Positions 6,569-25,284 of a stretch of 64,000 nucleotides of DNA are shown here, one piece after another. The notes beneath the pieces are model-generated. The model did not search any database. It worked only from the letters and a program-made list of their open reading frames with translations, and had not been told where the DNA came from. The number at the start of each line of letters is the position of its first letter. Within the stretch, counting starts at the first letter, position 1. Made by a program: the position numbers and the translations under genes. Source of the stretch: Pseudoxanthomonas sacheonensis (lineage in GTDB: Bacteria; Pseudomonadota; Gammaproteobacteria; Xanthomonadales; Xanthomonadaceae). The DNA lies in contig NZ_PDWS01000008.1 of the NCBI RefSeq assembly GCF_010093305.1, positions 62,001 through 126,000 on the forward strand. The letters run 5' to 3'.

Positions 6569-7588
6569 ATGCGGGGACACGTGGTCTGTTTCGGAGAGCT
6601 GCTATTGCGCCTGGGTGCGCCGGCACGGCAGTTGCTGCTGCAATCCCCTTGCCTGGAAGTGCACACCGGCGGGGCGGAAGCCAACGTCGCCGTTTCGCTG
6701 GCCAGGATGGGCCACCGTGCGCGCATGGTCGGACTGGTTGCGGACAACGCCCTGGGCGAGTCGGCGACAGGCGAACTGCGCCGCCACGGAGTGGATACGC
6801 GCGCGGTCGGCAAGGCCGAGGGACGCATGGGACTGTATTTCCTGACACCGGGAGCCATCCAGCGCCCGAGCGAGGTGCTCTACGACCGCGCCGACTCCGC
6901 TTTCGCACGGCACGGTGGCGGCGAGCACGACTGGAAGGCGCTACTGCAGGGGGCCGACTGGCTGCACGTGTCGGGCGTCAGTCCGGCATTGGGGCAACTG
7001 GCTGCCGACCGCACCTTGCAGGCGGTGCGGGCCGCGCGCGCAGCCGGGGTGAAGGTGTCCTTCGACGGCAACTTCCGTCCCAAGCTGTGGGAGGCCTGGC
7101 AGGGCGATGCCGCCGGGATCCTGCGTGCGATCATGGCCGAGGCCGACCTCATGTTCGCCAGCCATCGCGATATCCAGGTAGTGCTGGGGCGGGCGTTTCC
7201 GCAGGAGACTTCCCATGCGAGGTTCCTGGCGGGAGCAGAAGCTGCTTTCTCCGCATTTCCGCATTTGCAGCGCATGGCCGCCACCCAGCGCGTGCAGCAC
7301 AGTGTCGACCACCATTCTCTGTCGGCCATCGACGCCCGCCGCGACGGCAGCAGCCACATTACGCCGGTGTACGAGCTGGCCTCGATCGTGGACCGCATCG
7401 GCACCGGCGACGCATTCGCGGCCGGTGTGCTGCATGGCGAGATCGCCGGCATGGACGATGCGCAGGGTTTGCATTTTGGCCTGGCGGCGGCTTGCCTGAA
7501 GCACTCGCTGCCGGGGGATTTCAACTTGGTCGGCGTTGCGGAGATCGAGGCGCTGCTGGAGGAGGGCGGGTTCGACGTGAGGCGTTGA
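6569..7588 (+). CDS. kdgK: 2-keto-3-deoxygluconate kinase (PfkB family)
   Basis: A 339-residue PfkB-family sugar kinase. It shows the N-terminal CFGELLLRLGAP strand, the GGAEANVAVSLARMG signature near residue 32, the FDGNFRPKLW motif typical of KDG kinases, and the C-terminal GTGDAFAAGVLHG anion hole with catalytic Asp. KdgK phosphorylates 2-keto-3-deoxygluconate, the common product of galacturonate and glucuronate catabolism, to KDPG in the cytoplasm. The ATG at 6569 is chosen over an in-frame codon 37 triplets earlier because GGGA lies eight bases before it and homology begins there. Its place divergent from pectin receptors and a pectinesterase fits its role. The aldolase step (eda) is not in the window. 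Confidence 0.92.
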   Translation: MRGHVVCFGELLLRLGAPARQLLLQSPCLEVHTGGAEANVAVSLARMGHRARMVGLVADNALGESATGELRRHGVDTRAVGKAEGRMGLYFLTPGAIQRPSEVLYDRADSAFARHGGGEHDWKALLQGADWLHVSGVSPALGQLAADRTLQAVRAARAAGVKVSFDGNFRPKLWEAWQGDAAGILRAIMAEADLMFASHRDIQVVLGRAFPQETSHARFLAGAEAAFSAFPHLQRMAATQRVQHSVDHHSLSAIDARRDGSSHITPVYELASIVDRIGTGDAFAAGVLHGEIAGMDDAQGLHFGLAAACLKHSLPGDFNLVGVAEIEALLEEGGFDVRR

Positions 7589-7967
7589 GGGAGCGTGGAA
7601 GCCTTCGCGGCCGCAGAATGCCGAACGTCCTCAGTCGTCATCCCAGCGCAAGCTGGGATCCATCTTGATCTTGCCGTTCGACGCGGCCCGACCCTCGTCC
7701 GCAAACATCAAAGTCAAAATGGATCCCAGCTTGCGCTGGGACGACGTCATCGTTTCTATCTGATGCATCAGAGTTACCGGGTCGCAGCAAAATTGCTGGG
7801 TCCCGGCCTATGCCGGGACAACGGTGGGTATTGCGACTCGGTTCCAGGCGACGTCCCCCAATCCAATGGAGGCCGCCAAGCAATGAAATGTTTCTTCTGA
7901 ATATGCCGCCGAAGACTTTTCTTTGCTTCCGTTTCCCGCACACTGCGCGCCATGAAGAGCATGGTCG
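7589..7967. repeat. Intergenic gap with palindromic repeat (GTCATCCCAGCG family)
   Basis: Positions 7636-7750 hold two inverted copies of a Lysobacteraceae-type repeat. The left copy reads GTCATCCCAGCGCAAGCTGG then GATCCATCTTGATCTTG; the right copy is its complement after a 35-base spacer. A second palindromic unit, GTCCCGGCCTATGCCGGGAC, follows at 7801-7820. The remaining bases up to 7967 are AT-richer and probably carry the promoter of the lyase gene. I see no gene in the gap. Confidence 0.75.
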
Positions 7968-8825
7968 ATGCGTAGCAAGCTGTTCGTCCCTGGGGTGCGT
8001 CCGGAGTTGTTCGCCAAGGCGCTGGCGGGCGATGCCGATGCGTTGAGCTTCGACCTGGAGGATTCGGTACCCGAAGCGCGCAAAGGCGAAGCCCGCGAGT
8101 CGGTGTCCGCCTTGCTGCAGTCGGCCCCGCTGCTGGCCACGGCGAAGATCGTCGTGGTGCGGGTCAACGCCGTGGATACGGTGCACCTGGCAGCCGACCT
8201 GGCCGCGGTCGCGCGCACGGGCGTGGACCTGATCAACCTGCCCAAGGTCGAATCGGCGCAGGACGTGCTGGCTGCCGTCGCCCTGCTGGAGAAGGCCGAA
8301 GCGGCCAATGGCGTTGCCCAACCGATCGGGCTGCTGGCCAATATCGAAACCCCGCGCGGTCTGCGCCTTGCCGCCGAAATCGCATCCGCCCATCCACGCG
8401 TGGCCGGGTTGCAGCTGGGCCTGGCCGATCTGTTCCAGCCTTTGGGCATCGATCGCCGCGATCCGGCCAACGTCCACGCCGCGCTGTATGCGATGCGCAT
8501 GGCGGCCGCCGAAGCCGGTGTGTTCGCCTGGGACGCCGCCTTCGCCGACATCGGCGATGCCGATGGCTTCCGCGCCGAAGCCGGCATGGCGCGCCGTCTG
8601 GGCTACGTGGGCAAGAGCTGCATCCATCCCAGTCAGGTGGCCTTGGCCAACCAGGCGTTCCAGCCGGATGCCGAAGAAATCGCAGCGGCGCGGCGCATCG
8701 TCGCTGCGGCGCGCGAGGCCGGGCACGGCGCGTTCCTCGTCGATGGCCGCATGATCGATCTTCCTTTCCTTAAGCGGGCCGAAGCGATCCTGGCTTCGGC
8801 CGACGCCAATACGGGCGCGTCTTGA
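7968..8825 (+). CDS. HpcH/HpaI-family CitE-like acyl-CoA lyase
   Basis: A 285-residue TIM-barrel protein of the citrate-lyase-beta-like (CitE) branch of the HpcH/HpaI family. Visible signatures are RSKLFVPGVRPE at the N-terminus, ADALSFDLEDSV (metal/CoA region), VRVNAVDT, NLPKVES, the acidic IETPRGL strand near residue 125 and GKSCIHPSQV near residue 210. Relatives cleave malyl-CoA, citramalyl-CoA or similar 3-hydroxyacyl-CoA thioesters to acetyl-CoA and a keto compound. The stop overlaps the start of the symporter gene, so the two are translationally coupled. With the CoA-transferase at 21.7 kb it could degrade a hydroxy-dicarboxylic acid. The substrate is not visible from sequence. Confidence 0.8.
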   Translation: MRSKLFVPGVRPELFAKALAGDADALSFDLEDSVPEARKGEARESVSALLQSAPLLATAKIVVVRVNAVDTVHLAADLAAVARTGVDLINLPKVESAQDVLAAVALLEKAEAANGVAQPIGLLANIETPRGLRLAAEIASAHPRVAGLQLGLADLFQPLGIDRRDPANVHAALYAMRMAAAEAGVFAWDAAFADIGDADGFRAEAGMARRLGYVGKSCIHPSQVALANQAFQPDAEEIAAARRIVAAAREAGHGAFLVDGRMIDLPFLKRAEAILASADANTGAS

Positions 8826-11275
8826 TGAGCCATTCCCCTTTGCCGATGCGCGCCTTGCTGGCGGTACTGCTGTTGCTGGCCACGGCGTGGTCGCCGCTGA
8901 CCCATGCCGAAAGCCTGTCCAAGGTAAAGACCACTGCACTGCCCACGCTCGCCACAGACCAGCCTCTGATTGGTCTGGTGGCGGTGGAGGGCAGGCCGCT
9001 GGCGATCGGCGCGGACCAGGCCTGGATGCTGGACAGCCGCGGCGGAAGCTGGACGGCGTTGAACTGGAAGCCTGCGGCGGCAAGCGGCGAACTGAAAAGC
9101 GTGGTCGGCAACGGACAGCTCGCTTTCCTGTTGCGCGGGCCCGCGCAATCCAGCGCGGTCGCTTCCGTCGAACGCCTCGGCTTGATCAACGGCCAGCCGA
9201 CCGTCACGCCGTTGCCGCCGTTGCCGCCGTTGCCCGTCGTTGTGGAAGGCGCGCGCGCGGCGGCCAACGCCGACAACGTGTATGTCGCCGGCATCGATGC
9301 GAATGGGCAGGCGGTGCTGCTGTCGCTGGTGTCGACCGCGACGAAACCGGAATGGAAAAAGAGTGCCGGCTGGCCCGGCAATGCATCGCCGACTTCGCTG
9401 GTCGCGCAGACCTCGGCGGTGTTCGTCACCGTGCCTGCGGCTGGCGGCGAGCGCATCCTGCGCTGGGCGGCCGATAGCGGCTGGCAGGACAAGGGCAGGG
9501 TTCCCGGCAAGATCGTGCCCGGATCGGCGCGCGCCATCGGCCAGGCGCATGTGATCTATCTGGTCGCCGATGGCAGCGGCCCGGCGCAGATGCGGACCTT
9601 CCAGACCATCACCGGATCGTGGGCGACGCTGCCCGATTCCGATGCGGCTGGCGTCTTCGCGACCGCGGCATTGGACAACGGGGTGCTGTGGGCGCGACCC
9701 GCAGCGGACGGCAAGGGTATCGCTTTCGAGTCCACCCAGATCCAGTCCGGCAAGCTGCTGTTGCGCTGGCTGGACTGGATAGTGATCGTGGTCTACCTGG
9801 GCGCGATGCTCGGCATGGGCTTCTATTTCTACATCCGCGAAAAGCGCAACTCGACTTCGGACTTCTTCGTCGGCGGCCGCACCATTCCGTTCTGGGCGGC
9901 CGGCGTCAGCCTGTACGCGGCCAACACCAGTTCGATCAGTTTCATCGCCATTCCGGCCAAGGCCTTCGAAACCAACTGGCAGTATCTCACCAACAACCTG
10001 GTCGCGGTGCTGGGGCTGATGTTCGTGGCGGTCTGGATCGTGCCGTTGCTGCGCCGCCTCAATCTGATGTCGGTGTTCTCGTACCTGGAAACCCGCTTCC
10101 ACCCCACCATCCGCATGCTGGCCAGCGCGCTGTGCATCATCATGCAGATCGGCAGCCGCATGAGCGTGGTGCTGTTCCTGCCGGCGCTGGCCATCGCCAC
10201 CATCACCGGCATCCGGGTGGAGTGGAGCATCCTGATGATGGGCGGCTTCACCATCATCTACACCGCCATGGGCGGCATGAAGGCGGTGATCTGGACCGAC
10301 TTCGTGCAGGTCATCGTCAAGATGGGCGGCGCGATCTTCGCCATCCTCTTCATCGTCTGGACCTTGAAGGGCGGTTTCGGCGAATTCCACGACATCGCCC
10401 AGGCCGCCGACAAGACCAAGCTGCTGGATTTCAGCTTCGACCTGACCAAGGCCACGGTGTGGGGCTTCATCTTCCTGGTGCTGTTCGACGTGGTGCTGAC
10501 TTTCCCCAAGGATCAGGTGCTGATGCAGCGCACGCTGTCGACCAAGTCCGACAAGGAAGCCGGCCGTTCCATCTGGGCGTTCGCCCTGATCATGATCCCA
10601 GGCGGCTTCATCTTCTATTCCATCGGCACCGCGCTGTTCGTCTACTACAAGAACAATCCGGAACGCATGAACCCGCTGCTGCCGATCGATGCGACGTTTC
10701 CGTTGTTCATCGCCGCAGAGCTGCCGATGGGCGTGACCGGGCTGATCATCGCCGGCATCTTCGCGGCGGCCATGGCCACGCTCTCCAGCATCATGAACAG
10801 CGTGGCCACCCTGGCTTCGGTCGATTTCTACGAGAAGCTTTCCAAGAACCCCACGCCCAAGAAGAGCGTGCTGTTCGCCGAGATCGCCACTGTGGCTACC
10901 GGCTTGCTCGGCATCGGTGTGGCGCTGCTGCTGTCGCGCTTCGATATCCATTCGCTGTTCGACGTTTCGATCGAGCTGGCCGGCTTGCTGGGCGGCGGTT
11001 TCGCCGGCGCCTACACGCTGGGCATGTTCACGCGCCGCGCCAATTCGGCCGGCGTGGCCATCGGCGTGGCTTCCAGCATCGGGTTGACCCTGTTGGCCTG
11101 GTCGATGGACCTGGTGCATCCGTACTTCTATCTGGCCATCTCGATCATGCTGTGCATCGTGATCGGTTACCTGGCCAGCCTGCTGTTTCCGGCGCCGACC
11201 CGCGACCTGGACGGGCTGACGATCTGGGTGAAGTCGGACAGCAACTACGTAAAGCCGGAACCTGTCCGCCAATAG
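8825..11275 (+). CDS. Sodium/solute symporter (SSS) with large periplasmic N-terminal domain
   Basis: An 816-residue fusion. A signal peptide (MRALLAVLLLLATAWSPLTHA) leads into about 290 residues of Gly/Trp-rich beta repeats with a propeller- or kelch-like look. From about residue 318 (WLDWIVIVVYLGAMLGMGF) a typical SSS core begins, including REKRNSTSDFFVGGR, the unwound TM1-like VSLYAANTSSISFIAIPA and LMQRTLSTKSDKEAGRS. The core has about 13 membrane segments and imports a solute with Na+. The ATG at 8825 shares its A with the preceding stop (TGATG). Similar propeller-SSS fusions occur near sialate or sugar-acid genes, but the substrate here is open. Coupling to a CitE-like lyase points to a carboxylate or acylated sugar. 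Confidence 0.85.
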   Translation: MSHSPLPMRALLAVLLLLATAWSPLTHAESLSKVKTTALPTLATDQPLIGLVAVEGRPLAIGADQAWMLDSRGGSWTALNWKPAAASGELKSVVGNGQLAFLLRGPAQSSAVASVERLGLINGQPTVTPLPPLPPLPVVVEGARAAANADNVYVAGIDANGQAVLLSLVSTATKPEWKKSAGWPGNASPTSLVAQTSAVFVTVPAAGGERILRWAADSGWQDKGRVPGKIVPGSARAIGQAHVIYLVADGSGPAQMRTFQTITGSWATLPDSDAAGVFATAALDNGVLWARPAADGKGIAFESTQIQSGKLLLRWLDWIVIVVYLGAMLGMGFYFYIREKRNSTSDFFVGGRTIPFWAAGVSLYAANTSSISFIAIPAKAFETNWQYLTNNLVAVLGLMFVAVWIVPLLRRLNLMSVFSYLETRFHPTIRMLASALCIIMQIGSRMSVVLFLPALAIATITGIRVEWSILMMGGFTIIYTAMGGMKAVIWTDFVQVIVKMGGAIFAILFIVWTLKGGFGEFHDIAQAADKTKLLDFSFDLTKATVWGFIFLVLFDVVLTFPKDQVLMQRTLSTKSDKEAGRSIWAFALIMIPGGFIFYSIGTALFVYYKNNPERMNPLLPIDATFPLFIAAELPMGVTGLIIAGIFAAAMATLSSIMNSVATLASVDFYEKLSKNPTPKKSVLFAEIATVATGLLGIGVALLLSRFDIHSLFDVSIELAGLLGGGFAGAYTLGMFTRRANSAGVAIGVASSIGLTLLAWSMDLVHPYFYLAISIMLCIVIGYLASLLFPAPTRDLDGLTIWVKSDSNYVKPEPVRQ

Positions 11276-11542
11276 CGCTTGTTGCAGGGGCTATGGATGC
11301 TCCGTTCGTGGCGAGCCTGTCAAGATCCCGTTCGTGGTGAGCCTGTCGAACCACGCTCTTGGCGCAGAAGCAAAGTCCCCTGGATCCCGCCTCCGCAGAG
11401 ATGACGACCATCGATGAACTCGTCCAGCCACGCCTTTAACGCGGAATCCGGGTTATCGTAAACGCCCGGCATGACGCCATCGGTGTGGTTCGACAGCCCG
11501 CCGCGAACGGATTCTTGTTCAAGCCTGCTGCAGAGACCAGAC
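11276..11542. repeat. Intergenic gap with tandem CGTTCGTGG repeat units
   Basis: About 11305-11357 holds two direct copies of a unit beginning CGTTCGTGGYGAGCCTGTC. The first is truncated; the second continues into GAACCACG. The same unit occurs as an inverted pair inside the kdp operon (27431-27534). The rest of the gap, upstream of the LysR gene, shows no convincing gene or terminator. Confidence 0.7.
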
Positions 11543-12424
11543 GTGGATACCCAATTCCTCAAGACCTTCGTGGCAGTGGTAGACCGCGGTTCGATGGCCG
11601 CGGCCGCGCGCCTGCTCAACATCACTCCGGCGGCGGTGGCGCAGCAGATCCGCACGCTGGAGCGCGAAATCGGCGCGCCGCTGATCGCACGGGTTGGGCG
11701 CACGGTCAGCGTGACCGAGGAAGGCTCGCGCATCCTGCAGCGCAGCCGCGATCTGTTGCGCGACGTGGCCGACCTGCGCAGCCTGGCCAACGACAACGCG
11801 GTCTCCGGCGAACTGCGCCTGGGCGCCTGTCCCACCGCGCTGGCCGGCATGCTGCCCGACATCCTGGCGCGGATGGTGGAGAAATTTCCCGAAATCAACG
11901 TATTCATCAAGCCGGGCTACTCGGCCGATCTCTACCGCGCGGTGGAAGGCGGCGAACTGGATGCGGCGATCGTGCTGCACGCGCCCTACACCCTGCCCAA
12001 GACCTGTAATTGGCAGTTGCTGCGCGAGGAACCGCTGGTGGTGTTGGCGCCGGAAAGCATGGCCGGCCGCGATCCGCACGAGCTGCTGGCCACGCAGCCG
12101 CTGATCCGCTACGACCGCAACCACTGGGGCGGACGCCAGGCCGAGGAGTACCTGCAGCGTGTCGGCATCACTCCGCACGAGCGCTTCGAATTGAACGCTC
12201 TCAACGCGATCGCGGTGATGGTGGACCGCGGCCTTGGAGTTTCGCTCGTGCCGGACTGGGCCAAGCCGTGGCCGGAAGGATTGAAGCTGGTGCGCCTGCC
12301 GCTGCCGGAAGAAAGCGTACCGCGGCAGATCGGCATCGTGTGGTCGCGCTCGACCATCCGCATCCGCCTGGTGACCGTGTTCCTGGAAGAGAGCAGGGCG
12401 GCGATGAAGGCCGTCAACGGCTGA
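11543..12424 (+). CDS. LysR-family transcriptional regulator
   Basis: A 293-residue LTTR. The N-terminal winged helix-turn-helix reads FLKTFVAVVDRGSMAAAARLLNITPAAVAQQIRTLER. An effector domain with two Rossmann-like lobes follows (LRLGACPTALAGMLPDIL, then LDAAIVLHAPY and GLGVSLVPDWA). The GTG at 11543 is preferred because the family normally starts with this Asp-Thr-Gln-Phe-Leu segment; an upstream in-frame ATG would add 24 poorly conserved residues. It lies between the lyase/symporter pair and the receptor/hydrolase genes, all on the same strand, and is the only regulator in this block. It probably senses the imported acid or its CoA-pathway intermediate. That role is inferred. Confidence 0.85.
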   Translation: MDTQFLKTFVAVVDRGSMAAAARLLNITPAAVAQQIRTLEREIGAPLIARVGRTVSVTEEGSRILQRSRDLLRDVADLRSLANDNAVSGELRLGACPTALAGMLPDILARMVEKFPEINVFIKPGYSADLYRAVEGGELDAAIVLHAPYTLPKTCNWQLLREEPLVVLAPESMAGRDPHELLATQPLIRYDRNHWGGRQAEEYLQRVGITPHERFELNALNAIAVMVDRGLGVSLVPDWAKPWPEGLKLVRLPLPEESVPRQIGIVWSRSTIRIRLVTVFLEESRAAMKAVNG

Positions 12425-12451
12425 CCCCCAGGGGATTACTCCCGTCGCCAG

Positions 12452-12582
12452 GTCGCCATCCCAGCGAAAGCTGGGATCCATTTTGATCTGGCTCTGCGCT
12501 TTGATCGGCTTCACGCGAACATCAAAATCAAGATGGATCCCAGCTTGACCAGCTGCGCTGTTGGAAACCGCTGGGATGACGT
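12452..12582. repeat. Palindromic repeat pair (GTCATCCCAGCG family, variant)
   Basis: The left arm (GCCATCCCAGCGAAAGCTGG) is followed by GATCCATTTTGATCTGG. The right arm is the complement, but it is split by a 26-base insert (ACCAGCTGCGCTGTTGGAAA and flanks) before CTGGGATGACG. The same insert type recurs near 41398 and 58441, so it is a module of the repeat rather than random decay. Confidence 0.7.
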
Positions 12583-12866
12583 CGGTGCGCATGCGAATTG
12601 CCGGTAAATAAATGCTGCAATGCGTCATGAGCCGCGTATTCGGTAAGCAACAAAAACTAGACTCTGAACATAGTTCGCCCCGGTTCTATTCCCTTTCGCC
12701 AGCGCCTAGTCTCCCGTCCATTGTCGGGGCTGTACGTAAGCGTCTTGGAGGGGATGCTTGGCACGCAGTTCGCATCCGCGCGAACTGCCGACGCGCATAC
12801 GCAAACGGGGGAGCCGCGCATTCGCCGCGTCTCTTGATAAGTACAAAAACCTAGAGACCAAACACC
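12583..12866. promoter_or_regulatory. Leader region of the third TonB-dependent receptor
   Basis: The 284 bases before the receptor ATG contain no ORF with coding character. The bases nearest the ATG (AAAAACCTAGAGACCAAACACC) are A-rich, with GAGA as a weak ribosome site. I could not identify -35/-10 boxes or an operator with confidence. Confidence 0.3.
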
Positions 12867-15104
12867 ATGAAGCACGTACCGGCCACATTCGGCGTTTTCC
12901 TGCTGGCGGCTGCCGTCAGCGCCAGCGTCCATGCGCAACAGGCGGCCGCGGCGGCCGAACCGGCTCCCGCGGCCGATAGCCAGCCAGCCGACGCGACCGA
13001 TCTGGATGCGGTGATCGTCACCGGCTCTCGCAGCCCCAAGGCGATCGACAAGATACCGGGCGCGATCACGCTGGTCTCGAAAGAGGAAATCAAGAACACC
13101 CTGGCGGTGACCGAGGACGCCACCGCCGTGCTGGCGCGCACCGTGCCCGGCTACGCCGAATCCTCGCAGGCCATGAGCAACTCGGGCGAAACCCTGCGCG
13201 GCCGCATCGCGCTGCGCCTGTTCGACGGCGTTCCGCAGGGCTCGCCGCTGCGCGAGGGCAACCGCAACGCGACTTTCACCGACATGGGCATCGTCGACCG
13301 CATCGAGGTAATCAATGGTCCTTCCGCGTCGGAAGGCATCGGCGCAGCGGGCGGCATCATCAACTACATCTCCAGCGTGCCGCAGAAGGAAGGCAACGAG
13401 TTCCGCATCCTTACCCGCTATTCGACCCAGTTCGGCAACGACAGCAGCGGTTGGAAGGTGGGCGCCAACTGGCTGCACAAGCAGGACAACTATGATTTTG
13501 TAGTCGGACTGTCCGCCATCGATCGCGGCATCTCCTACGATGCCGACGGCCGCCGCGTGGGCATGAACACCAGCGGCTCGGTCTCCGACTCCATGGCCAA
13601 CAACCTGTTCCTGAAAGGCGGCATCAACTTCGGCGAAGACGGGATGCAGCGGCTGCAGGCCAGCTACAGCCATTTCAAGATCGAGGGCAACGGCGACTAC
13701 ATCCAGGTCGAGGGCTGCCGTCCGGGCACCTGCGAGAATCCGGTCACCAACACTTCCGAGCGCGGGCACATCTTCGGCAGCAAGGCCGAGTTCAACGACT
13801 TCGAGCAGTTGAACGTCCTCTATTCGCATGGGGATTTCCTCGGCGGCACGCTGATGATGAACGCGTACTGGGCCGATCAGGCGATGCGCTACCTGCCGGA
13901 GAACGGCGACGACAAGCAACTGGTGAAGGTGGACGACGACTTCGACGAAGCCGACCGCATCTACGACCAGTCCGAGATCGACAGCAAGAAGTACGGGTTC
14001 CGTCCGTCGTGGACGCGCGGTTCATTGTTCGGCGTGGAAGGCCTCGAGCTGCGTGCCGGTGTGGATTTCGTCAAGGACGAGGCGCAACAGCGCCTGGCGC
14101 TCACCAACCGCGTGTGGGTGCCGCCCATGAAATACACCAGCACCGCGCCCTACGCGCAGTTGAGCTACGACCTGGGTCCGGTCACGTTCAGCGGCGGTTT
14201 CCGGCGCGAGGACGGCGAGCTCAAGGTCGACAGCTACACCACCACGGCGTTCCGCAACAGCGTGTTCGTCCAGGGCGGCGGTGTGGAATACACGGAGAAT
14301 CTGGTCAATTTCGGCAGTATCTGGCGCATCACCGACGAGTGGTCGGTATTCGCTTCCTATGGCGAAGGCTTCAGCCTGCCCAACATCGGCATCCCGCTGC
14401 GCAACATCAACGTGCCGGGCCAGTCGGTGGACCGCATCCGCGATATCCAGCCCATCATCGTCGACAACCGCGAGTACGGTTTCAACTGGCGCGGCGACCG
14501 CGGTTCGTTCGGCGGTTCGTATTACGACTCCAGATCGCCCTTCGGCACGTCCCTGTCGGTGGACCCGGAGACCAACGACTACGTCCTCAATCGCGCGCCG
14601 ACCCGCATCAAGGGCGTCGAGCTGAGCGGCGAATGGAGGTTCAACGATCAATGGAAGGCGAGCGCGCTGTACTCGCGCATCCGCGGCAAGACCGCATTCT
14701 GGAATGCGGACCTGGAAGGTCGCTACCCCGCCGGCGGGTTGAACAAGCCGATCGGCGTGTCGGACATCAATCCGGACAAGATAGGCGCTTCGGTCACCTG
14801 GAAATTCAACCCCAACGGCGATGTCACACTGAATGCGACAAAATTGATGTCGCGCGACTTGTCCGGTGAGGACGTGCGCGAATTCGACGGCGCTACGTAT
14901 TCGTTCGAAGAGCATACCGACGGCTACACCCTGTTCGACCTGAGCGTGAACTACAGGATCGAGAACGTCGGGCGCTTCACCGTGGGCATCGAAAACCTGA
15001 CCGACAAGCAGTACATCCTGAGCTGGTCGCAGGTGGACTTCTTCAAGAACTACTTCGCCGGCCGTGGCCGCATGGTCTCGCTGACCTATGAGTACACTTT
15101 CTGA
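12867..15104 (+). CDS. TonB-dependent receptor (accessory glycoside/acid cluster)
   Basis: A 745-residue outer-membrane receptor, shorter than the two pectin-locus receptors and of siderophore-receptor size. The signal peptide (FLLAAAVSASVHAQ) is followed by an Ala/Pro-rich linker, a TonB-box-like LDAVIVTGSRSPKAIDKIP, and a plug with ALRLFDGVPQ and IEVINGPSASEGIGAAGGIINY. The barrel ends TFTVGIENLTDKQYI...LTYEYTF-like, with a C-terminal Phe. It is followed, after 115 bases, by the secreted serine hydrolase and then a coupled run of sugar-processing genes. Uptake of a small glycoside is therefore as likely as iron uptake. No iron-related gene is nearby. Confidence 0.88.
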   Translation: MKHVPATFGVFLLAAAVSASVHAQQAAAAAEPAPAADSQPADATDLDAVIVTGSRSPKAIDKIPGAITLVSKEEIKNTLAVTEDATAVLARTVPGYAESSQAMSNSGETLRGRIALRLFDGVPQGSPLREGNRNATFTDMGIVDRIEVINGPSASEGIGAAGGIINYISSVPQKEGNEFRILTRYSTQFGNDSSGWKVGANWLHKQDNYDFVVGLSAIDRGISYDADGRRVGMNTSGSVSDSMANNLFLKGGINFGEDGMQRLQASYSHFKIEGNGDYIQVEGCRPGTCENPVTNTSERGHIFGSKAEFNDFEQLNVLYSHGDFLGGTLMMNAYWADQAMRYLPENGDDKQLVKVDDDFDEADRIYDQSEIDSKKYGFRPSWTRGSLFGVEGLELRAGVDFVKDEAQQRLALTNRVWVPPMKYTSTAPYAQLSYDLGPVTFSGGFRREDGELKVDSYTTTAFRNSVFVQGGGVEYTENLVNFGSIWRITDEWSVFASYGEGFSLPNIGIPLRNINVPGQSVDRIRDIQPIIVDNREYGFNWRGDRGSFGGSYYDSRSPFGTSLSVDPETNDYVLNRAPTRIKGVELSGEWRFNDQWKASALYSRIRGKTAFWNADLEGRYPAGGLNKPIGVSDINPDKIGASVTWKFNPNGDVTLNATKLMSRDLSGEDVREFDGATYSFEEHTDGYTLFDLSVNYRIENVGRFTVGIENLTDKQYILSWSQVDFFKNYFAGRGRMVSLTYEYTF

Positions 15105-15219
15105 ATGTCCTCATTCGCGCACCACATCAAGTTTTGATTGCTGAGTTTTCGATGGCGTACGTCTGCCTGCATGTCGGGTTCGAGCTGGCCTGCCTGGCGG
15201 CAGGCGGCCGCCATCGACG

Positions 15220-16533
15220 ATGGATTTCCATGCGTCGGGGTCCCGCGTGCTGACGCGCTTTTTCCCATTGCTGTGCGGCATCGTGCTCGGCCTGGCCTCG
15301 GCGGCCGTTGCCGCTTTCTCTTCGCCAGCCAACGCTGCAGGTGCGGGCGCCGACTCTCCTCGGATCCCGGCAGAACGCCTGCAGCGGTTGGATGGCTTTC
15401 TCGAACATGCGACCGACGCGCAGGGTTACCAGGGCGCGGTCAGCCTGGTCTGGAAAGACGGCGTGATAGTCCAGTCGCAGGCCTACGGCTATCGCGACCT
15501 GGCCCGCAGCTCGCCCATGCGCAAGGACTCCATTTTCCGCATCTACTCCATGACCAAGACGGTGACCACGGTCGCTGCGCTGATGTTGATGGAGGAGGGA
15601 AAACTGGGCCTGGATGATCCGGTCGAGAAGTATCTGCCGGAATTCTCCGGCATGCGGATCTTCACCGGCGGCAGCGCCGATCTGCTGCAGCTGCGGCCTG
15701 CGAACCGCAAGATCACCCTGCGTCAACTGCTGACCCACACCGCCGGTTTCGCGACCGCAGGAAATGAGGAAGCGACCAAGCTGCTGGAGCGCGCCGACCT
15801 GCATGGTTCGGCCGATCTGGCCGAATTCTCCGAACGCCTGTCCAAAGTACCCCTGGCGGTTGAGCCGGGCACGCGATTCCGTTACGACGGCACCCAGATG
15901 GAAGTAGTCGCACGCATCGTGGAAGTCGTGAGCGGACAGCGCTTCGATGATTTCGTGCAACAACGAATCCTCGCTCCGCTGCGCATGGAAGACACCGGCT
16001 TCAGCATTCCGCCAGCCAAGCGCGACCGCATCGTCGACATCACGACCATGGGCGCGGACGGGAAATTGCGCTTGGACCAAGGCCCGAGCGCGCTGCATCC
16101 GGGCGAAATGCTCAATCCTTACCCCAGCGGCGCGGGCGGTCTGTACTCCACCGCACCGGATTTCATGCGCCTGTGCCGGATGCTGCTCGACGGCGGCACG
16201 CTGGAAGGCGCAACCCTCCTCGACCGCAAGACGGTCGAGCAGATGATGATCAACCAGCTGACCTTCCTGGACCGGCCAGTGACCCAGTTCAGCGATGCGG
16301 AAGGCTTCGGGCTGGGTGGCTCCGTGCTGCTTGATCCCGCGGGCAAGGGCCGTCTGGGTTCGGCCGGACAATTCGGCTGGTCCGGTGCGGCTTCCACCTA
16401 TTTCTCCATCGATCCCAAGGAACGGATGATCTCGATCCTGTTGTTGCAGCACCTTCCCAACGGCGCGGCCAACGATCTGCCGCGGATCGGCACGCCCTTC
16501 TACAACCTGGTCCATCAGGCGCTGACGCCATGA
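15220..16533 (+). CDS. Secreted serine hydrolase, beta-lactamase class C/EstB type
   Basis: A 437-residue member of the class C beta-lactamase/esterase superfamily. A hydrophobic leader with Ala-rich cleavage region ([25 protein letters not shown]) predicts export to the periplasm. The nucleophile motif S-x-x-K is SMTK, in [20 protein letters not shown] at about residue 110. The Tyr motif is RYDGTQMEV, and the third box is replaced by FGWSGAAST, as in EstB-like esterases rather than lactamases. It overlaps the ribokinase start by four bases (ATGA). An internal GTG at 15247 is an alternative start. Given its neighbours it may hydrolyse an ester on an imported glycoside, but true beta-lactam or peptide substrates cannot be excluded. 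Confidence 0.85.
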
Positions 16534-17474
16534 ACGCGCGCAAGACCTTGCTGGTGGCCGGTTCGGCCAACCTGGATTTCGTGGTGCGCGCCTCGCACGT
16601 GCCGGCGCCCGGGGAAACCGTGCTCGGGCGCGAATTCGCGACGTTCCCCGGCGGCAAGGGCGCCAATCAGGCGGTGGCCTGCGCGCGGGCGGGCGGCGTC
16701 GATACGGGCATGCTGCTGGCGTTGGGCAACGACCCGTTCGCCAAGACCATCGAAGACTCCCTGGCCGATGCGGGCGTAGCCGTGCAGGTGGTGCGCAGCG
16801 CGCAGCCGACCGGCACCGCTTTCATCTGCCTGTCCGACGATGCCGAGAACGCGATCACCGTCGCCCCGGGCGCCAATGGCGCATTGTGCGGCGACGAGCT
16901 TCCGTCGCTGCAAGCGGTGAGCCATCTGCTGCTGCAGCTGGAGACGCCCATGGAAGCGGTGACCGCTTTCGCGCTGGCGGCGCGCGCGGCGGGCGTGCAG
17001 GTGGTGCTGAATGCAGCGCCCGCACAGGCGCTGCCCACCGAGTTGTTGCTGTCGGTCGACGTGCTGATCGTCAATGAGGGCGAACTGGCCGCCGTCACCG
17101 GGCATCGTGGCAGCGTGGCCGAATGCCTGGCGCTGCTGGACGTGCCCTGCGTGGTGGTGACCCTGGGCGCGCGCGGTTGCTGCGCGCGGCAGGGCGCGGA
17201 ATTTTTCCTGCAGTCCGGTTTCAAGGTCCAGGCGGTCGATACCACCGCCGCCGGCGACACTTTCTGCGGCGCTCTGGTCGCCGCGCTGAACCTGGGCGAT
17301 CCGCTGCCCGCGGCGCTGCGCTACGCATGCGCCGCGTCGGCGTTGGCCTGCACGCGATTGGGTGCACAATCCAGCATCCCGCAACGCATCGAAGTGGAAG
17401 CGATGCTGCGTTCGAACGACCGCCACGCGCCACGTGCCGACCGCAGCCTCGCCGCTTATTGCGGCCTTGTGTGA
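16530..17474 (+). CDS. Ribokinase-like PfkB sugar kinase
   Basis: A 314-residue PfkB-family kinase closest to ribokinase. It has [20 protein letters not shown] at the N-terminus, the [17 protein letters not shown] signature near residue 40, [20 protein letters not shown] and the [17 protein letters not shown] active-site loop with catalytic Asp. These enzymes phosphorylate furanose pentoses, usually ribose, at O5 using ATP. Its start overlaps the serine hydrolase stop by four bases, and a TIM-barrel/SUMF1 protein follows 37 bases later. It may therefore phosphorylate the pentose released by the GH127 enzyme. The sugar is inferred and could be another pentose or deoxy sugar. Confidence 0.88.
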
Positions 17475-17511
17475 CACTCGCTTCCAATCGATCCGGAACC
17501 CCCCAAAGACC

Positions 17512-19704
17512 ATGACCGCAAGCCCGGAAAACACAGCGCCTCCGACCGACTCCCGCGACGACGGGGAGCGGCCGGAGATCAGGACCGAATACAAGTTCTC
17601 CCACGTCACCACCCAGCGGTACCTGCCCACGCCGGGCAAGGCGCCGGGCTGGCCCTTCGCCGAGATCGGCCATTGGAAGATGGACGTCAACGGCACCGCC
17701 GGCGACTGGCTGCGCGAACTGCGCGACTGGCGCCGCGAGCACCTGACCCGCATCGGCTACGACGACGCCAACTACAAGCGTCCGGAACTGCAGTGGGCGC
17801 AGCGCAACTTCGTGCATGCGCAGATGATGATCGAGGACCGCTATTTCTACGATGCGGCGGTGGGCAAGTACACCGTCGACCGTTATCTGGACGATCTGGA
17901 GGAACGCTTCGGCGGACTGGACAGCGTGCTGCTCTGGTACATCTATCCCAACATCGGCATAGACGACCGCAACCAGTTCGATCTCATCCACGACCTGCCG
18001 GGCGGCGTGGAAGGCATCCGCGGCGTGGTCGCCGATTTCCACCGGCGTGGAGTGAAGGTGTTCCTGCCGACCATGCCGTGGGACAACGGCACCCGCGAGC
18101 AGGGCGAAGCCGATTGGCTGGCGATCGCGCGGCTGGTCAAGGAAACCGGCGCCGACGGCATCAACGGCGACACCTACAACGGCGTGCCGCGCGCCTTTTT
18201 CGACGCCTGCGACGCGCTGGGCCGTCCGGTGGTGGTGCAGCCGGAGTCCACGATCAGCGCCGAGGAACACCTGATCTGGAACGTACAGAGCTGGGGCAAG
18301 AAAGTGCCGGCGGACGTGATTCCCTCGGTGGCCAAGTTCAAGTGGCTGGAACCGCGCCACATGATCAATTACGAAAACCGCTGGGGCCGCGACCGCAGCA
18401 ACGATCTGCAATACATCTTCTTCAACGGCGTGGGCTACAACGCGTGGGAGAACATCTGGGGCATCTGGAACCAGTTCACCCCGCGCGATGCGGCCACCCT
18501 GCGCCGCATCGCCGCGGTCGAGCGCAAGTTCGCGCCGTTGATGGTCAGCATGGACTGGCAGCCGTATGCGGCCACGCTGCAGGCCGGGGTGTTCGCCAGC
18601 CGTTTCCCGGGCGACGGCATGACCTTGTGGAATATCGTCAACCGCAACGAGTACGAGGTGGACGGCGAGCAGATCGCCGTGGATCACATCGAGGGCACGC
18701 GCTACTTCGATGCCTGGAACGGCGTCGCTTTGCAGCCGCGCCTGGCCGACGGCAAGGCAACGCTGACAACGACCCTGGAAGGGAAGGGTTACGGCGCCGT
18801 GCTGGCATTGGAAGCGGGCACGCAGGATCCGGACCTGGAAGCGTTCCTCGAACTGATGAAGGGCTTCGCCAGGACGCCGTTGCAATCGCTGTCGAACCAG
18901 TGGAAATCGATTCCGCAGACCCTGGTCGAGATCGCCCGTACAGCGCCGGTGGCCAAGGCCCCTGAAAGCATGGTCGCCATCCCTGCCGGCGAATTCGATT
19001 TCGTGGTCGGCGGTATCGAGATCGAAGGCCAGACCTGGGAAGGCGTTGACTTCCAGTACCCCTGGGAAAACAGCGCGCGCCGCGGACATCGCAGGCGCAT
19101 GCAGATGCGCGCCTTCCATATCGACCGCACTCCGGTCACCAACGAGCAGTTCAAGCGCTTCATCGACCAGAGCGGTTACCGGCCGCGCGACAGCCACAAT
19201 TTTCTGCGCCACTGGGTGGAGGGCGCACCCGCGGCAGGTTGGGAGAACAAGCCGGTGACCTGGGTGTCGATCGAGGACGCGCGCGCCTACGCGCGATGGG
19301 CCGGCAAGCGTCTGCCGCACGAATGGGAGTGGCAGTACGCCGCGCAAGGCAACGACGGACGCGCCTATCCGTGGGGCAATGCCTGGAATGCCGCGGCCGT
19401 GCCGGCGCCGAACCGCGGGCGCCGGCTGCTGCCGCCGGCCGATGTGGACGCGCATCCCGCCGGCGCCAGCACGTTCGGCGTCCTGGATCTGGTCGGCAAC
19501 GTCTGGCAATGGACCGACGAATACTTCGACAGCCATACCCGCGCCGCGGTGCTGCGCGGCGGCAGCGCCTATCGTCCGCAGACCTCGCACTGGTATTTCC
19601 CGCAGGCTTACCGCTTGGACCAGCACGGCAAATATCTGCTGATGGCGCCTTGCAAGGATCGCTCGGGCAGCGTGGGCTTCCGCTGCGTCGTGGATGCGGA
19701 ATGA
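17512..19704 (+). CDS. TIM-barrel-like hydrolase domain fused to SUMF1/FGE-like domain
   Basis: A 730-residue cytoplasmic fusion with no signal peptide. Residues about 20-440 look like a (beta/alpha) barrel with acidic loops (VLLWYIYPNIGIDDRNQFD, FLPTMPWDNGTR, GADGINGDTYNG, VVVQPESTIS), suggestive of a glycoside hydrolase of no family I can name. From about residue 480 (PESMVAIPAGEFDFVVGG) a formylglycine-generating-enzyme-like domain follows, with VTNEQFKRFIDQSGY, WAGKRLPHEWEWQYAA, LVGNVWQWTDEYF, LRGGSAYRP and GSVGFRCVV. The paired cysteines of true FGE in the RGGS-to-R stretch are absent (YRPQTSHWYFPQAYRL), so it probably does not make formylglycine. The ATG at 17512 lies 37 bases after the ribokinase stop. 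The last codon overlaps the GH127 start (ATGA). Confidence 0.75.
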   Translation: MTASPENTAPPTDSRDDGERPEIRTEYKFSHVTTQRYLPTPGKAPGWPFAEIGHWKMDVNGTAGDWLRELRDWRREHLTRIGYDDANYKRPELQWAQRNFVHAQMMIEDRYFYDAAVGKYTVDRYLDDLEERFGGLDSVLLWYIYPNIGIDDRNQFDLIHDLPGGVEGIRGVVADFHRRGVKVFLPTMPWDNGTREQGEADWLAIARLVKETGADGINGDTYNGVPRAFFDACDALGRPVVVQPESTISAEEHLIWNVQSWGKKVPADVIPSVAKFKWLEPRHMINYENRWGRDRSNDLQYIFFNGVGYNAWENIWGIWNQFTPRDAATLRRIAAVERKFAPLMVSMDWQPYAATLQAGVFASRFPGDGMTLWNIVNRNEYEVDGEQIAVDHIEGTRYFDAWNGVALQPRLADGKATLTTTLEGKGYGAVLALEAGTQDPDLEAFLELMKGFARTPLQSLSNQWKSIPQTLVEIARTAPVAKAPESMVAIPAGEFDFVVGGIEIEGQTWEGVDFQYPWENSARRGHRRRMQMRAFHIDRTPVTNEQFKRFIDQSGYRPRDSHNFLRHWVEGAPAAGWENKPVTWVSIEDARAYARWAGKRLPHEWEWQYAAQGNDGRAYPWGNAWNAAAVPAPNRGRRLLPPADVDAHPAGASTFGVLDLVGNVWQWTDEYFDSHTRAAVLRGGSAYRPQTSHWYFPQAYRLDQHGKYLLMAPCKDRSGSVGFRCVVDAE

Positions 19705-21584
19705 AACCGGACATGGACAACGCGATGGCATCGCCGTCTCCGGTGGAAGTACGGCTCGGCGGTTTGCTGGGCGAAGCGCTCGCCGCGAACCGGTCGGGCC
19801 GTCTGTCGCATTTCATCGTCGATGAAACCAGCCCGGCCATTGCGATCTTCGATCCGGAGCTCGCCGCGAAGAACCAGGAAGGCGACTGGTACGGCGAACA
19901 CGCGGGCAAATGGCTGTACGCCACCGCCAAAGCCGCCGCACGTAGCCAGGACCCTGCGCTGATCGCCAACTTGCAGCGCGTGGCCGACTATCTGGTAAGC
20001 GTGCAGGAAGCCGATGGCTACCTGGGCACGTACGCGCCGGACCACCGCTTCATGCGCAAACAGCCGCCCAAGCCGGGCACCTGGGACGGCGCGCCCAGCG
20101 TGCGCACCTGGGACATCTGGACGCACAGTTATCTGATCCTGGGCCTGCTGGAAACGCACAGGCATTTCCCCAAGCCGGAATACCTGCAGGCCGCGCGCAA
20201 GATCGGCGACCTGTGCTGGCATACGCTCACCGAGGGCGGCATCGACATCACCGAACTCGGAAACCATCACGGCATGTCCGCCACCGTGCTGATGGACCCG
20301 GCGACGGAGCTGTATTTCGCCACCGGGGAAGCGCGTTATCTCGAGCTGGCGCAACTGGTACTGCGGCAAGCCGACGACAACACGGATCTGGCGCTGCTGA
20401 AGCGCGCATTGGCCGGCGCCGATGCATCGGAGATCGCCACCGGCAAGGCCTATCAGCTGGCCTGGAATCTGGTGGGGCTGGCGAAGCTGCACAAGGCCAC
20501 CGGCATTGCCGCGTATCGCGAAGCGGTCGATCAGGTGTGGGAAAGCATCCGCAGCCAACACCTCACGCTCGGCGGCGGGCCCTGGGGCGGTGTGGCGCAC
20601 CGCTCGCGCGAGGTGTTCAATCCGGCAGGTGTGTTCAGTCCGCACGGTTACGTGGAAACCTGTTCCATCCTGGCCTGGGTGCAGCTCAACCGCGAACTGC
20701 TGGCGCTCAGCGGCGAGGCGAAATACGCCGAAGAGATAGAACGTACCGCTTACAACGATCTGCTCGGCGCCATGGCGCCCGACGGCAACGACTGGTGCTA
20801 CTACTCCTTCGCCAACGGCCGCCGCGTGCATACGACCTACTGGCGTTGCTGCAAGTCCAGCGGAGCGATGGCGATCGAAGAACTGCCCGCGCTGGCCTAC
20901 ACGCAATCGCAGGCCGGCGACCTCATGGTCAATCTGTTGGGCCCCGGCGAAGCGGCCTTCGACCATCCGCGGGCCGGCAAGGTGATATTGAAGCAGGCCA
21001 CCGCCTATCCGTTCGACGGCGGCATCGAACTGCAAGTGTCCTGCGAGCATTCCGCACGCTTCGCCATTAGCATACGCATTCCGCAATGGGCCGAAGAAGC
21101 GACCGTCGCCCTCAACGACGGCGGCGAACCGATGCAGGCGAATCCCGGCGCCTATGCCGTCATCGAGCGCGAATGGCGATCCGGCGACGTAGTAAGCCTG
21201 GAGTTGCCGATGCCGCCGGTAGCGCATCGCCAGGTGCAGCAGAACACCCAGGAATCGCGCGCGCCGGACGGTTCGCCGGTACGCCAGCAGGTGATGCGTT
21301 ACGAATACCTGGCGGTGACGCGCGGCCCGCTGGTGTATGCCAGCGACTTGATCGACGGCTTCAAGACCGAAGAAACGCTGCGTCTTGCCGATGCGCCGAT
21401 CGACGACTGGCTGCATCCGGCGCCGGGCGAAAGCGGCGAGGGCGCCGCCCTGCATCTGCACAGCCTGGGCCGCCCGCCGTTGACGCTGGTGCCGTATTAC
21501 CGGGCCGGAGGCCGCAACCATGGGGCATGGCGGCTCACCTGGTTCTCGCTGGCGCCCGGGCCGGCGCCGCCTCCACCGGAATGA
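19701..21584 (+). CDS. GH127-family glycoside hydrolase (beta-L-arabinofuranosidase-like, DUF1680)
   Basis: A 627-residue protein of the DUF1680/GH127 family: an (alpha/alpha)6 barrel with C-terminal beta domains. The Zn/Cys catalytic set of this family is visible: GYVETCSILAW supplies the Glu-Thr-Cys segment near residue 318, and YWRCCKSSG supplies the two vicinal cysteines near residue 382. No signal peptide is seen, so it acts in the cytoplasm on imported substrate. The ATG at 19701 overlaps the previous stop by four bases. Known members release beta-L-arabinofuranose, and some remove other furanosides such as aceric acid from rhamnogalacturonan II. Which one applies here is open. The Pro-rich tail (GPAPPPPE) is unusual. 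Confidence 0.85.
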   Translation: MKPDMDNAMASPSPVEVRLGGLLGEALAANRSGRLSHFIVDETSPAIAIFDPELAAKNQEGDWYGEHAGKWLYATAKAAARSQDPALIANLQRVADYLVSVQEADGYLGTYAPDHRFMRKQPPKPGTWDGAPSVRTWDIWTHSYLILGLLETHRHFPKPEYLQAARKIGDLCWHTLTEGGIDITELGNHHGMSATVLMDPATELYFATGEARYLELAQLVLRQADDNTDLALLKRALAGADASEIATGKAYQLAWNLVGLAKLHKATGIAAYREAVDQVWESIRSQHLTLGGGPWGGVAHRSREVFNPAGVFSPHGYVETCSILAWVQLNRELLALSGEAKYAEEIERTAYNDLLGAMAPDGNDWCYYSFANGRRVHTTYWRCCKSSGAMAIEELPALAYTQSQAGDLMVNLLGPGEAAFDHPRAGKVILKQATAYPFDGGIELQVSCEHSARFAISIRIPQWAEEATVALNDGGEPMQANPGAYAVIEREWRSGDVVSLELPMPPVAHRQVQQNTQESRAPDGSPVRQQVMRYEYLAVTRGPLVYASDLIDGFKTEETLRLADAPIDDWLHPAPGESGEGAALHLHSLGRPPLTLVPYYRAGGRNHGAWRLTWFSLAPGPAPPPPE

Positions 21585-21705
21585 GAGCCGGCCCTCAAGC
21601 AAGAAATTGTGCCGTCAGAAGCTAGCAAGCCAACCTGTTAAAGCGGACGATCATGCAGCAGACTTTTCGTCAGCGTTATTGGATGAAGTAGAGGGAAAGG
21701 ACCGT

Positions 21706-22872
21706 ATGGCGACTGATTCACCGTTCGCGTTCGCAGGCCGTACCGGCGCACCCGGTCCGTTGAGCGGCGTGCGCGTGCTGGACCTCAGCGCCTACATCGC
21801 AGGGCCCTACGGCTGCACGCTGCTGGCCGACCAGGGCGCCGACGTGCTCAAGATCGAGCCGCCTGACGGCGACAACCTGCGCAAGTATCCGTCCACGCTG
21901 CAGGCCGAGAGCCGCGCTTTCCTGGGCGTCAACCGCAGCAAGCAGGGCATGACCCTGGACCTGAAGAAGCCGCACGGTTTCGCCACGCTGCTGAAACTGG
22001 TGCGCGAAGCGGACGTGCTGGTGCACAACTTCCGTCCCAGCGTGCCCAAGCGCCTGGGCATAAGCTACGAGCAACTGAGCTTCGTCAATCCGCGCCTGAT
22101 CTACTGCGCCGTCACCGGCTACGGCGAGACCGGACCGATGAAAGACAAGGCCGGCTACGACCAGGTGCTGCAGACCATGACCGGCATGTGCGCGCTGCAA
22201 GGCAAACGCGGCGGCGCCCCGGAAATCATCTACGGCTCGGTGGTGGACTATTACGCGGCAGCGCTGCTCGCCGCGGGCGTGTCTTCGGCGCTGTACGAAC
22301 GCGAACGCAGCGGGCTGGGCCAGTTCGTCGGCGTGTCGCTGCTGCGCAGCGCGCTGACCATGCAGTCGGCGCGCATGATCTGGGCCGAAGGCGAATCGCT
22401 GGATATCGGACGCGACATGCGTTCGGGCGGCGTTACCGGCATCCACCCCACGCGCGAAGGCCATATCTACATCTCCGCCAACACGCCGCGCTTCTGGAAG
22501 GCGTTGTGCGACAAGACCGGCCTGCACATGCTGGAGCAGAACGAACGCTACGACACCGTGCGCAAGCGCGCCGATCACGCCAACGAGATCGTTCCGCACC
22601 TGCACGCCGCCTTGACCCGGCACAGCGCGCTGGAATGGGAAGAAATTTTCGGCGATGAAGTGCCGTGCGCGGCGGCGCGCCGGGTCGAGGATATGTTCGA
22701 CCATCCGCAAGTGCTGGCGGAGGAGATAGTGGGGGACATCGAACATCCCGTCATCGGCCGCTACCGCGGCGTGACCCGGCCGATCAAGTTCGGCCGTACG
22801 CCGGGGCCGGATCCGTTCGCGGCACCGGTGTTCCAGGAAGCCGAGCCGTCGCAGGAAGCTCGCAAGGCCTGA
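21706..22872 (+). CDS. CaiB/BaiF class III CoA-transferase
   Basis: A 388-residue class III CoA-transferase. It begins with PLSGVRVLDLSAYIAGPYGCTLLADQGADVLKIEPP and has NRSKQGMTLDLKKP, VTGYGETGPMKDKAGYDQVLQTMTG with the catalytic Asp in AGYDQ, and the C-terminal PVIGRYRGVTRPIKF. Such enzymes move CoA from a donor thioester to a carboxylic acid in the cytoplasm. The ATG at 21706 follows an AGGGAAAGG site. An in-frame upstream extension of 62 codons overlaps the GH127 gene and lacks homology. With a CitE-like lyase at the other end of the cluster, it could activate an acid released from the imported glycoside. The acceptor cannot be read from the sequence. Confidence 0.86.
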   Translation: MATDSPFAFAGRTGAPGPLSGVRVLDLSAYIAGPYGCTLLADQGADVLKIEPPDGDNLRKYPSTLQAESRAFLGVNRSKQGMTLDLKKPHGFATLLKLVREADVLVHNFRPSVPKRLGISYEQLSFVNPRLIYCAVTGYGETGPMKDKAGYDQVLQTMTGMCALQGKRGGAPEIIYGSVVDYYAAALLAAGVSSALYERERSGLGQFVGVSLLRSALTMQSARMIWAEGESLDIGRDMRSGGVTGIHPTREGHIYISANTPRFWKALCDKTGLHMLEQNERYDTVRKRADHANEIVPHLHAALTRHSALEWEEIFGDEVPCAAARRVEDMFDHPQVLAEEIVGDIEHPVIGRYRGVTRPIKFGRTPGPDPFAAPVFQEAEPSQEARKA

Positions 22873-25274: not shown

Positions 25275-25284
25275 GAACAATGAA

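Follow-up and report, generated by a model that had tools for sequence, protein, structure and literature searches.

What could join, on one strand of one genome, enzymes expected to open glycosides and enzymes expected to activate and split acids as CoA thioesters? The question is raised by a nine-gene cluster of Pseudoxanthomonas sacheonensis at positions 7968–22872 (+ strand) of a 64,000-nucleotide stretch of DNA, the whole of which is here called the window; it corresponds to C43:62001–126000 of a 4.04 Mb genome assembled into 44 contigs, the cluster itself lying at C43:69968–84872. One of the nine genes encodes a TIM barrel/SUMF1 fusion protein, which is 97% identical in Pseudoxanthomonas sp. 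CF125, the nearest named relative found.

We read the cluster as a catabolic locus in which a glycoside module is joined to a hydroxy-acid module, coupling glycoside breakdown to CoA-dependent cleavage of an acid, and give this reading a probability of about 0.5. An earlier note, made from the letters alone, had proposed the uptake and dismantling of an acylated or acid-bearing furanoside; that interpretation is partly supported and is refined here into two modules. The two-module locus is supported by retention of the gene set, in several gene orders, in Xanthomonadales, Burkholderiales, alphaproteobacterial and verrucomicrobial loci.

In the proposed pathway, a TonB-dependent receptor (TBDR) would carry an acylated small glycoside into the periplasm, a serine esterase would strip its ester groups, and a sodium symporter would bring the glycoside into the cytoplasm. 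Two cytoplasmic enzymes, the GH13-like/SUMF1 fusion and a GH127-type glycosidase, would cleave two different glycosidic bonds, and a kinase would phosphorylate the released pentose, the likeliest source of which is a 1,2-cis furanoside of the beta-L-arabinofuranosyl or alpha-D-ribofuranosyl type. A class III CoA-transferase would activate a 2-hydroxy di- or tricarboxylic acid, which is a 3-hydroxy acid when counted from its other carboxyl group, and a CitE-like lyase would split the thioester into acetyl-CoA and a 2-oxo acid. If one acid is to be named, the best guess is one of the citramalate type, and the LysR-type regulator may serve as the acid sensor. We infer the chemistry, location and transport direction of these proteins and, since the sugar and acid modules can live apart, we likewise only infer that sugar and acid derive from one compound.

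A bolder form of this reading, which is possible though doubtful, is an undescribed pathway for a widespread glycoside linking a pentofuranose to a citramalate- or itatartarate-type acid, opened by a new type of glycosidase that would combine a clan-H-like barrel with a SUMF1-fold domain lacking the formylglycine cysteines. Among the matches listed from the open-licence PMC literature, no title concerned this gene set. That soil and marine bacteria keep so rare a locus so sharply conserved implies that some natural compound repays its import; the locus also supplies a glycosidase-like domain that no Pfam family covers, mutually exclusive enzyme swaps, and a separable acid module, the substrate of which could be assayed directly with two purified proteins.

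Gene layout and conservation of the cluster

The families of the nine genes are backed by Pfam and NCBIfam, the barrel half of the fusion excepted; together with the open reading frame coordinates this confirms the earlier description of nine same-strand genes of these families with overlaps of 1–4 bases. The lyase and symporter genes overlap by 1 or 4 bases, the esterase and kinase genes by 4, and the fusion and GH127 genes by 4. Gaps separate symporter and regulator (195 bases), regulator and receptor (442), kinase and fusion (37), and GH127 and CoA-transferase (121), and for this reason the cluster is probably split over more than one transcript. No NCBIfam equivalog model reached its cut-off (for two of the proteins, among the best 25 matches listed), so the names citE, RipC, ribokinase, aceric acid hydrolase and succinate-glutarate CoA-transferase are unearned.

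Genome contigs scanned with the fusion protein yielded 419 relatives; the best 80 were retained, and 66 of their loci spanned at least 20 kb. Within these 66, homologues were found of the lyase (56, an undercount, as this gene falls where the 10 kb flank stops), the symporter (61), the LysR regulator (54), the TBDR (63), the beta-lactamase-type esterase (50), the ribokinase-like kinase (59), GH127 (60) and the CaiB-type CoA-transferase (63, with at least 50% identity in 57). Genes flanking the cluster served as a control and recurred in far fewer of the same loci: KdgK in 2, KdpA in 3, KdpB in 3 and KdpC in 2. Since the cluster genes recur across genera, orders and phyla while the flanks mostly do not, the clustering is not due to chance. 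The two halves of the cluster (7.9–12.4 kb and 12.9–22.9 kb), which the earlier note had needed to see together elsewhere, do co-occur, and widely so. By inspection, most Xanthomonadales and Burkholderiales loci share the gene order of the cluster, and other orders are seen in verrucomicrobial, Massilia and Paraglaciecola loci; in the alphaproteobacterial loci L124, L126 and L128 a block of LysR, symporter and lyase genes is divergent.

Across the genus, presence is nearly all-or-none. The fusion is encoded by 26 of 37 genomes, the window genome counted. Of these 26, 25 have an orthologue of the lyase (at least 60% identity) and 25 one of the CoA-transferase (at least 72%); the 11 others have neither. 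The misses are G006 (completeness 94%, contamination 8%) and G003 (completeness 89%, 650 contigs); weaker homologues only are present in the fusion-less genomes G004 and G016 (lyase) and G007 (CoA-transferase). In an even draw of the phylum the fusion was found in 4 of 398 genomes, the window genome and one congener among the 4; in the order of G281, which we judge to be alphaproteobacterial, 9 of 196 genomes have it.

The proposed hydroxy-acid module

The lyase gene (7968–8825; PF03328 at 151 bits) encodes a CoA ester lyase of the CitE-like superfamily (HpcH_HpaI), which misses both the citE (199.8 bits against a cut-off of 443.4) and the RipC (169 against 375) models of NCBIfam. The best PDB match is malyl-CoA lyase 4l9y. 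Residues R65, E127, D154 and D264 are at least 98% conserved over 61 aligned loci; E127, D154 and D264 align with those of 4l9y, and we take the conserved acids to be Mg-binding and lid residues. The class III (CaiB) CoA-transferase (about 21706–22872; PF02515 at 370.8 bits) has as its nearest PDB entries 10uh (formyl-CoA transferase) and 9br6 (succinate–hydroxymethylglutarate CoA-transferase). The Asp of its AGYD motif (D152 in the window enzyme), presumably the catalytic residue, is kept in 65 of 72 homologues.

Counts of alternative gene types here and below refer to the 83 of 91 loci with at least 15 kb, whose flanks stop at about 10 kb and which are related and not independent trials (L099 and L129 are apparently the same contig). 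The window type of CaiB occurs in 72 of them, a verrucomicrobial type in 7, both in 0 and neither in 4, and either type can partner the lyase in separate acid modules.

Such modules were found in several genomes. In a Burkholderiales metagenome-assembled genome (MAG) the fusion locus, L101, has no CitE or CaiB gene before the contig end, a CaiB gene just beyond being possible; two other loci of the same genome, lacking the cluster glycoside genes, carry a lyase (62–63% identity), a TctC-like receptor (42–46%) and a CaiB (70–74%), one of them with a LysR gene (50%). On plasmids, lyase homologues (52–65%) have a CaiB-family gene no more than about 3 kb away at all eight loci examined. These are eight of the ten best matches H21–H30 (H22 was left out and H30 is the cluster itself), and four of the eight records are unannotated there and were read by similarity alone. 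A TctC-type receptor is present at six of these loci, an amidohydrolase at four and a 2-hydroxycarboxylate transporter at one (L153; PF03390 at 445 bits, TIGR00783 at 413 against a cut-off of 549). The two amidohydrolases that were compared with models come closest to one for a lactonase, with scores well short of its cut-off. In L154 the lyase and CaiB genes are separated by an amidase and an isochorismatase; in L149, one of the two loci of the Burkholderiales MAG, a PfkB-family kinase and a TRAP transporter adjoin the lyase, and relatives of the window LysR (about 50% identity) stand beside the lyase in L150, L156 and L157. On a Sphingopyxis plasmid the lyase, symporter, LysR and a carboxylesterase lie across the numbering origin from the remaining cluster genes. 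The lyase and CoA-transferase, which might have belonged to unrelated pathways, thus form a pair of their own in the Burkholderiales MAG and on plasmids, and the carboxylate receptors and the 2-hydroxycarboxylate transporter of the separate module argue that this pair may act on a 2-hydroxy di- or tricarboxylate.

Of the acids suggested earlier, citramalate is retained. 3-Hydroxy-3-methylglutarate (HMG) is unlikely, because the genome encodes an HMG-CoA lyase over cut-off (460 bits against 246), and malate is unlikely, because as a tricarboxylic acid cycle intermediate it needs no CoA activation; a 2-hydroxy acid of the citramalate, citrate or itatartarate type is most likely the better fit. 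The earlier remark that the cluster contains no hydratase was right: Pfam finds none among the nine genes, and the two MaoC-type matches in the genome lie at C43:13597–13872, about 56 kb from the cluster, and at C2:22839–23159 on another contig.

No inverted repeats were found before the LysR gene (11471–12424; PF00126 and PF03466). Five short candidate repeats precede the TBDR gene; one of them, a perfect 9-base dyad with a 6-base spacer (12765–12788) about 80 bases before the TBDR start, is a possible operator.

The proposed glycoside module

The TBDR (12867–15104; PF00593/PF07715) has as its best NCBIfam matches the siderophore or hemin receptor models RhtA, TIGR01783 and TIGR01785, all below cut-off. 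The symporter gene runs from 8822 (TTG) or, as the likelier start, 8825 (ATG) to 11275. Its product matches PF00474 (139.8) and the SSS superfamily model TIGR00813 (215.8, over the cut-off of 184) and ranks PRK10484 (124 bits) above PutP (81), PanF (70) and ActP (33); it carries an extra N-terminal domain of about 310 residues, for which the best Pfam match, NANM (E 0.011), is below cut-off. In L101 the symporter stands beside the sugar genes without CitE, with an aldo/keto reductase gene upstream, and the acid loci of the same MAG have receptors of their own; since it stays with the glycoside genes there, we assign the symporter to the glycoside.

The beta-lactamase-fold serine esterase (15220–16533; PF00144 at 236.5 bits) has an N-terminus that looks signal-like by eye, and its S110, K113 and Y222 are at least 98% conserved over 53 loci. 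The kinase (16530–17474; PF00294 at 182 bits) is a member of the PfkB family and misses the ribokinase-type model TIGR02152 (262 bits against 299.65). The GH127-type glycosidase (19701–21584), sole PF07944 match in the genome (143.9 against a cut-off of 24.9), also matches PF20736 (71.4), with PF20737 just under its cut-off (22.3 against 23.7). The nearest PDB entries are 6ex6 (116 bits) and then 4qjy. Residues E318/C320 and C382/C383, which we take to be the Glu/Cys zinc motif of the family, are at least 98% conserved over 70 loci, and by eye the protein shows no signal peptide.

Two of these enzymes are exchanged for others in particular lineages. GH127 alone is present in 72 loci, an ADP-ribosylglycohydrolase alone in 7 (6 genomes), both in 0 and neither in 4 (L104, L113, L130, L131); one or two PF03747 genes without GH127 were recognised by Pfam in L084, L099, L105, L110 and L111 and by similarity in L108, L129 and L132. 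The beta-lactamase-type esterase alone is found in 54 loci, a PF00756-type esterase alone in 11 (L040, L084, L110 and L111 by Pfam, others by similarity), both in 0 and neither in 18, and the Sphingopyxis plasmid carries yet another type, PF00135. These lineage-specific swaps support the presence of putative ester-hydrolase and glycosidase slots, as had been proposed; for the ribokinase role proposed with them, the backing is conservation only (59 of 66 loci).

Both beta-L-arabinofuranosides and alpha-D-ribofuranosides belong to the 1,2-cis furanosides, and on this ground, with the ribokinase-like gene, the likeliest sugar is a 1,2-cis pentofuranoside. It most likely has a second glycosidic bond, perhaps of the alpha type. 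Aceric acid from rhamnogalacturonan II was rejected as the source, the aceric acid hydrolase model of NCBIfam scoring 130.2 bits against a cut-off of 950; no pectin enzyme was seen among 40 neighbouring proteins scanned with Pfam, although the distant Spirosoma relative of the fusion does have a GH28 gene next to it. The alpha-ribofuranose of bacterial O-antigens, described in a passage of PMC11127046, is a possible source to which no link was found.

The fusion (17512–19704), which shows no signal peptide by eye, matches PF03781 (134 bits) with its C-terminal half only, so that the SUMF1 part of its earlier assignment stands by Pfam; the barrel has no significant Pfam match and appears GH13-like in a structural model. 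When the barrel halves of three relatives were compared with Pfam, PF00128 was absent up to E 5 and only unrelated families appeared (E 0.03–0.095), the filters dropping most matches above E 0.1. A profile of 31 fusions found among PDB sequences SUMF1-type chains only, plus a weak CotH match in the same half. The AlphaFold2 model built from the 31 sequences has a mean pLDDT of 72 and a pTM of 0.75. Among the best 50 of 518 Foldseek matches in PDB (E<=0.001), 49 were GH13-type enzymes and one a LAT1-4F2hc complex; the best E was 8.4e-13, and TM on the query was 0.31–0.35. The catalytic acids of GH13 lie on strands 4, 5 and 7, with an invariant Arg two residues before the nucleophile. In the 31 fusions D220, E245 and E288 are invariant: in the model D220 comes just after strand 216–219, E245 three residues past the two-residue strand 241–242, and E288 at the end of strand 284–288, and Asn218 occupies the position of the invariant Arg. 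With moderate confidence the barrel half is predicted to be GH13-like, from which it follows that the second glycosidic bond may be cut by this protein.

The SUMF1-type half of the window fusion lacks the CxxxxC pair, which we take to be the active-site pair of FGE. This motif occurs in 6 of the 31 fusion rows, in five of them at the extreme C-terminus ending GFRC. FGE or EgtB activity was therefore rejected for this domain, the EgtB, SenA and OvoA scores also being below cut-offs. A phage search with the fusion returned three records with weak, kinase-annotated matches to the SUMF1 half. The Spirosoma relative, at 35% identity, belongs to a different carbohydrate locus that includes GH28 and GH36-type genes; no other gene of the cluster was found there. 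In L050 (12010–15261, a 1084-residue open reading frame), L055 and L059 a ThuA and cytochrome c protein sits between fusion and GH127. In verrucomicrobial loci the fusion and CaiB are adjoined by MFS transporters and by enzymes of GH13 type that match PF00128, over its cut-off, and PF16657 (L089:8381–9892, L089:14236–15513, L098:7394–9052, L098:10896–12818).

Around the cluster, a PfkB kinase gene upstream (6458–7588, + strand) is near 2-keto-3-deoxygluconate kinase models, all below cut-off, and was found upstream in 2 of the 66 loci of at least 20 kb. Downstream of the cluster, at 23574–30977 (+ strand), come kdp-like genes for potassium, read by eye as KdpA/B/C and a sensor kinase. Two more TBDR genes lie upstream on the minus strand (232–3402 and 3517–6327), antisense to a 2086-residue plus-strand open reading frame (115–6375). 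The palindrome CATCCCAGCGAAAGCTGGGATCCAT occurs at 7639–7663, 7719–7743, 12457–12481 and 40971–40995 and has 83 genome matches at up to 2 mismatches, against 0 for the reversed control; it often forms inverted pairs about 60–90 bases apart, which we presume to be REPIN-like.

Competing readings and closest known systems

Several observations weigh against a coupled glycoside and acid pathway. All seven verrucomicrobial CaiB proteins (L084, L089, L094, L095, L097, L098, L102) have Gly at the aligned catalytic Asp, and in Variovorax (L104) the fusion gene stands alone, with no further member of the cluster. Three loci from MAGs of unknown completeness, L105, L108 and L110 (the last two from Neomarinimicrobiota), combine the fusion with ADP-ribosylglycohydrolases and a sugar ABC transporter, a ribokinase-like gene being seen in two of the three; they have no CaiB at E<=1e-10 and a lyase homologue of only 34–35% identity, so the acid step is not obligatory. 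In the fusion model the stretch around E245 has a mean pLDDT of 58, the whole model being only moderate. The specificities of the GH127 and PfkB families are broad, and GH127, offered earlier as a sign of a furanoside, fails as proof of one, since enzymes of this family also release 3,6-anhydro-D-galactose according to a passage of PMC10958521.

The main rival, which we consider unlikely, is that the two modules are independent and were co-inherited because both nutrients share a habitat, for example root or algal exudate. It would account for acid modules standing apart from glycoside genes in Burkholderiales and Alphaproteobacteria, for the glycoside genes without CaiB in the three MAGs, and for the separate, at times divergent, block of LysR, lyase and symporter genes. 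It sits badly with the placement of acid genes inside sugar loci: the lyase gene lies directly behind the fusion in six of seven verrucomicrobial loci (in L098 a GH13-like gene intervenes), both acid genes lie within the sugar operon in Massilia (L103, L106, L109), and CaiB follows the fusion in Paraglaciecola L111 and in L099. Such varied placements point to repeated re-association, and the nearly all-or-none presence in the genus also tells against independence.

Uptake and breakdown of a sugar-containing hydroxycarboxylate-type siderophore, or of another small iron-binding natural product, would agree with the receptor models nearest the TBDR and with an acid module handling a citrate- or malate-like acid, as the transporter of L153 suggests. 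This is improbable, since no obvious iron-acquisition protein was seen among the 40 neighbours scanned with Pfam and since L105, L108 and L110 have the sugar-type ABC transporter in place of the window TBDR, of which they yielded no homologue. A variant of itaconate or mesaconate degradation by CoA-transferase and citramalyl-CoA lyase, with the carbohydrate genes as passengers, is very improbable. Ict and Ccl do belong to the CaiB and CitE families, and the RipC model does match; its score is however below cut-off, no hydratase is encoded in the cluster and the MaoC-type genes are distant, so itaconate itself was rejected as substrate. According to passages of PMC12290011, what is specific to the itaconate pathway is its hydratase and its lyase; they also doubt an itaconate role for a second lyase homologue encoded beside a CoA-transferase without a hydratase, which also counts against this variant.

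Compared with known systems, the coupled locus preferred here shares parts with several. The window GH127 has the domain and the Glu/Cys motif of beta-L-arabinofuranosidases and aceric acid hydrolases and differs in its low scores against 6ex6 and the aceric acid hydrolase model and in the apparent lack of a signal peptide. The fusion model, of moderate confidence, appears to resemble GH13 (clan GH-H) in its barrel, its acids near strands 4, 5 and 7 and its C-terminal beta domain, whereas PF00128 is not matched, Asn218 replaces the Arg and an FGE-fold domain is attached; this FGE-sulfatase domain is common to the FGE/EgtB family, from which the window protein departs in lacking CxxxxC. The yegTUV genes of Escherichia coli, of which the function is stated as not clear in a passage of PMC10819704, encode a transporter, an ADP-ribosylglycohydrolase-family protein and a PfkB-type kinase, the slots of the GH127-less loci, but not an acid module, fusion or esterase. 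The ict-ich-ccl cluster for itaconate and methylsuccinate, as described in part of PMC12290011, likewise pairs a CaiB-type CoA-transferase with a CitE-like lyase, there yielding acetyl-CoA and pyruvate; the window locus differs in having no itaconyl-CoA hydratase and a lyase below the RipC cut-off, and adds a glycosidase, an esterase, a kinase and a TBDR.

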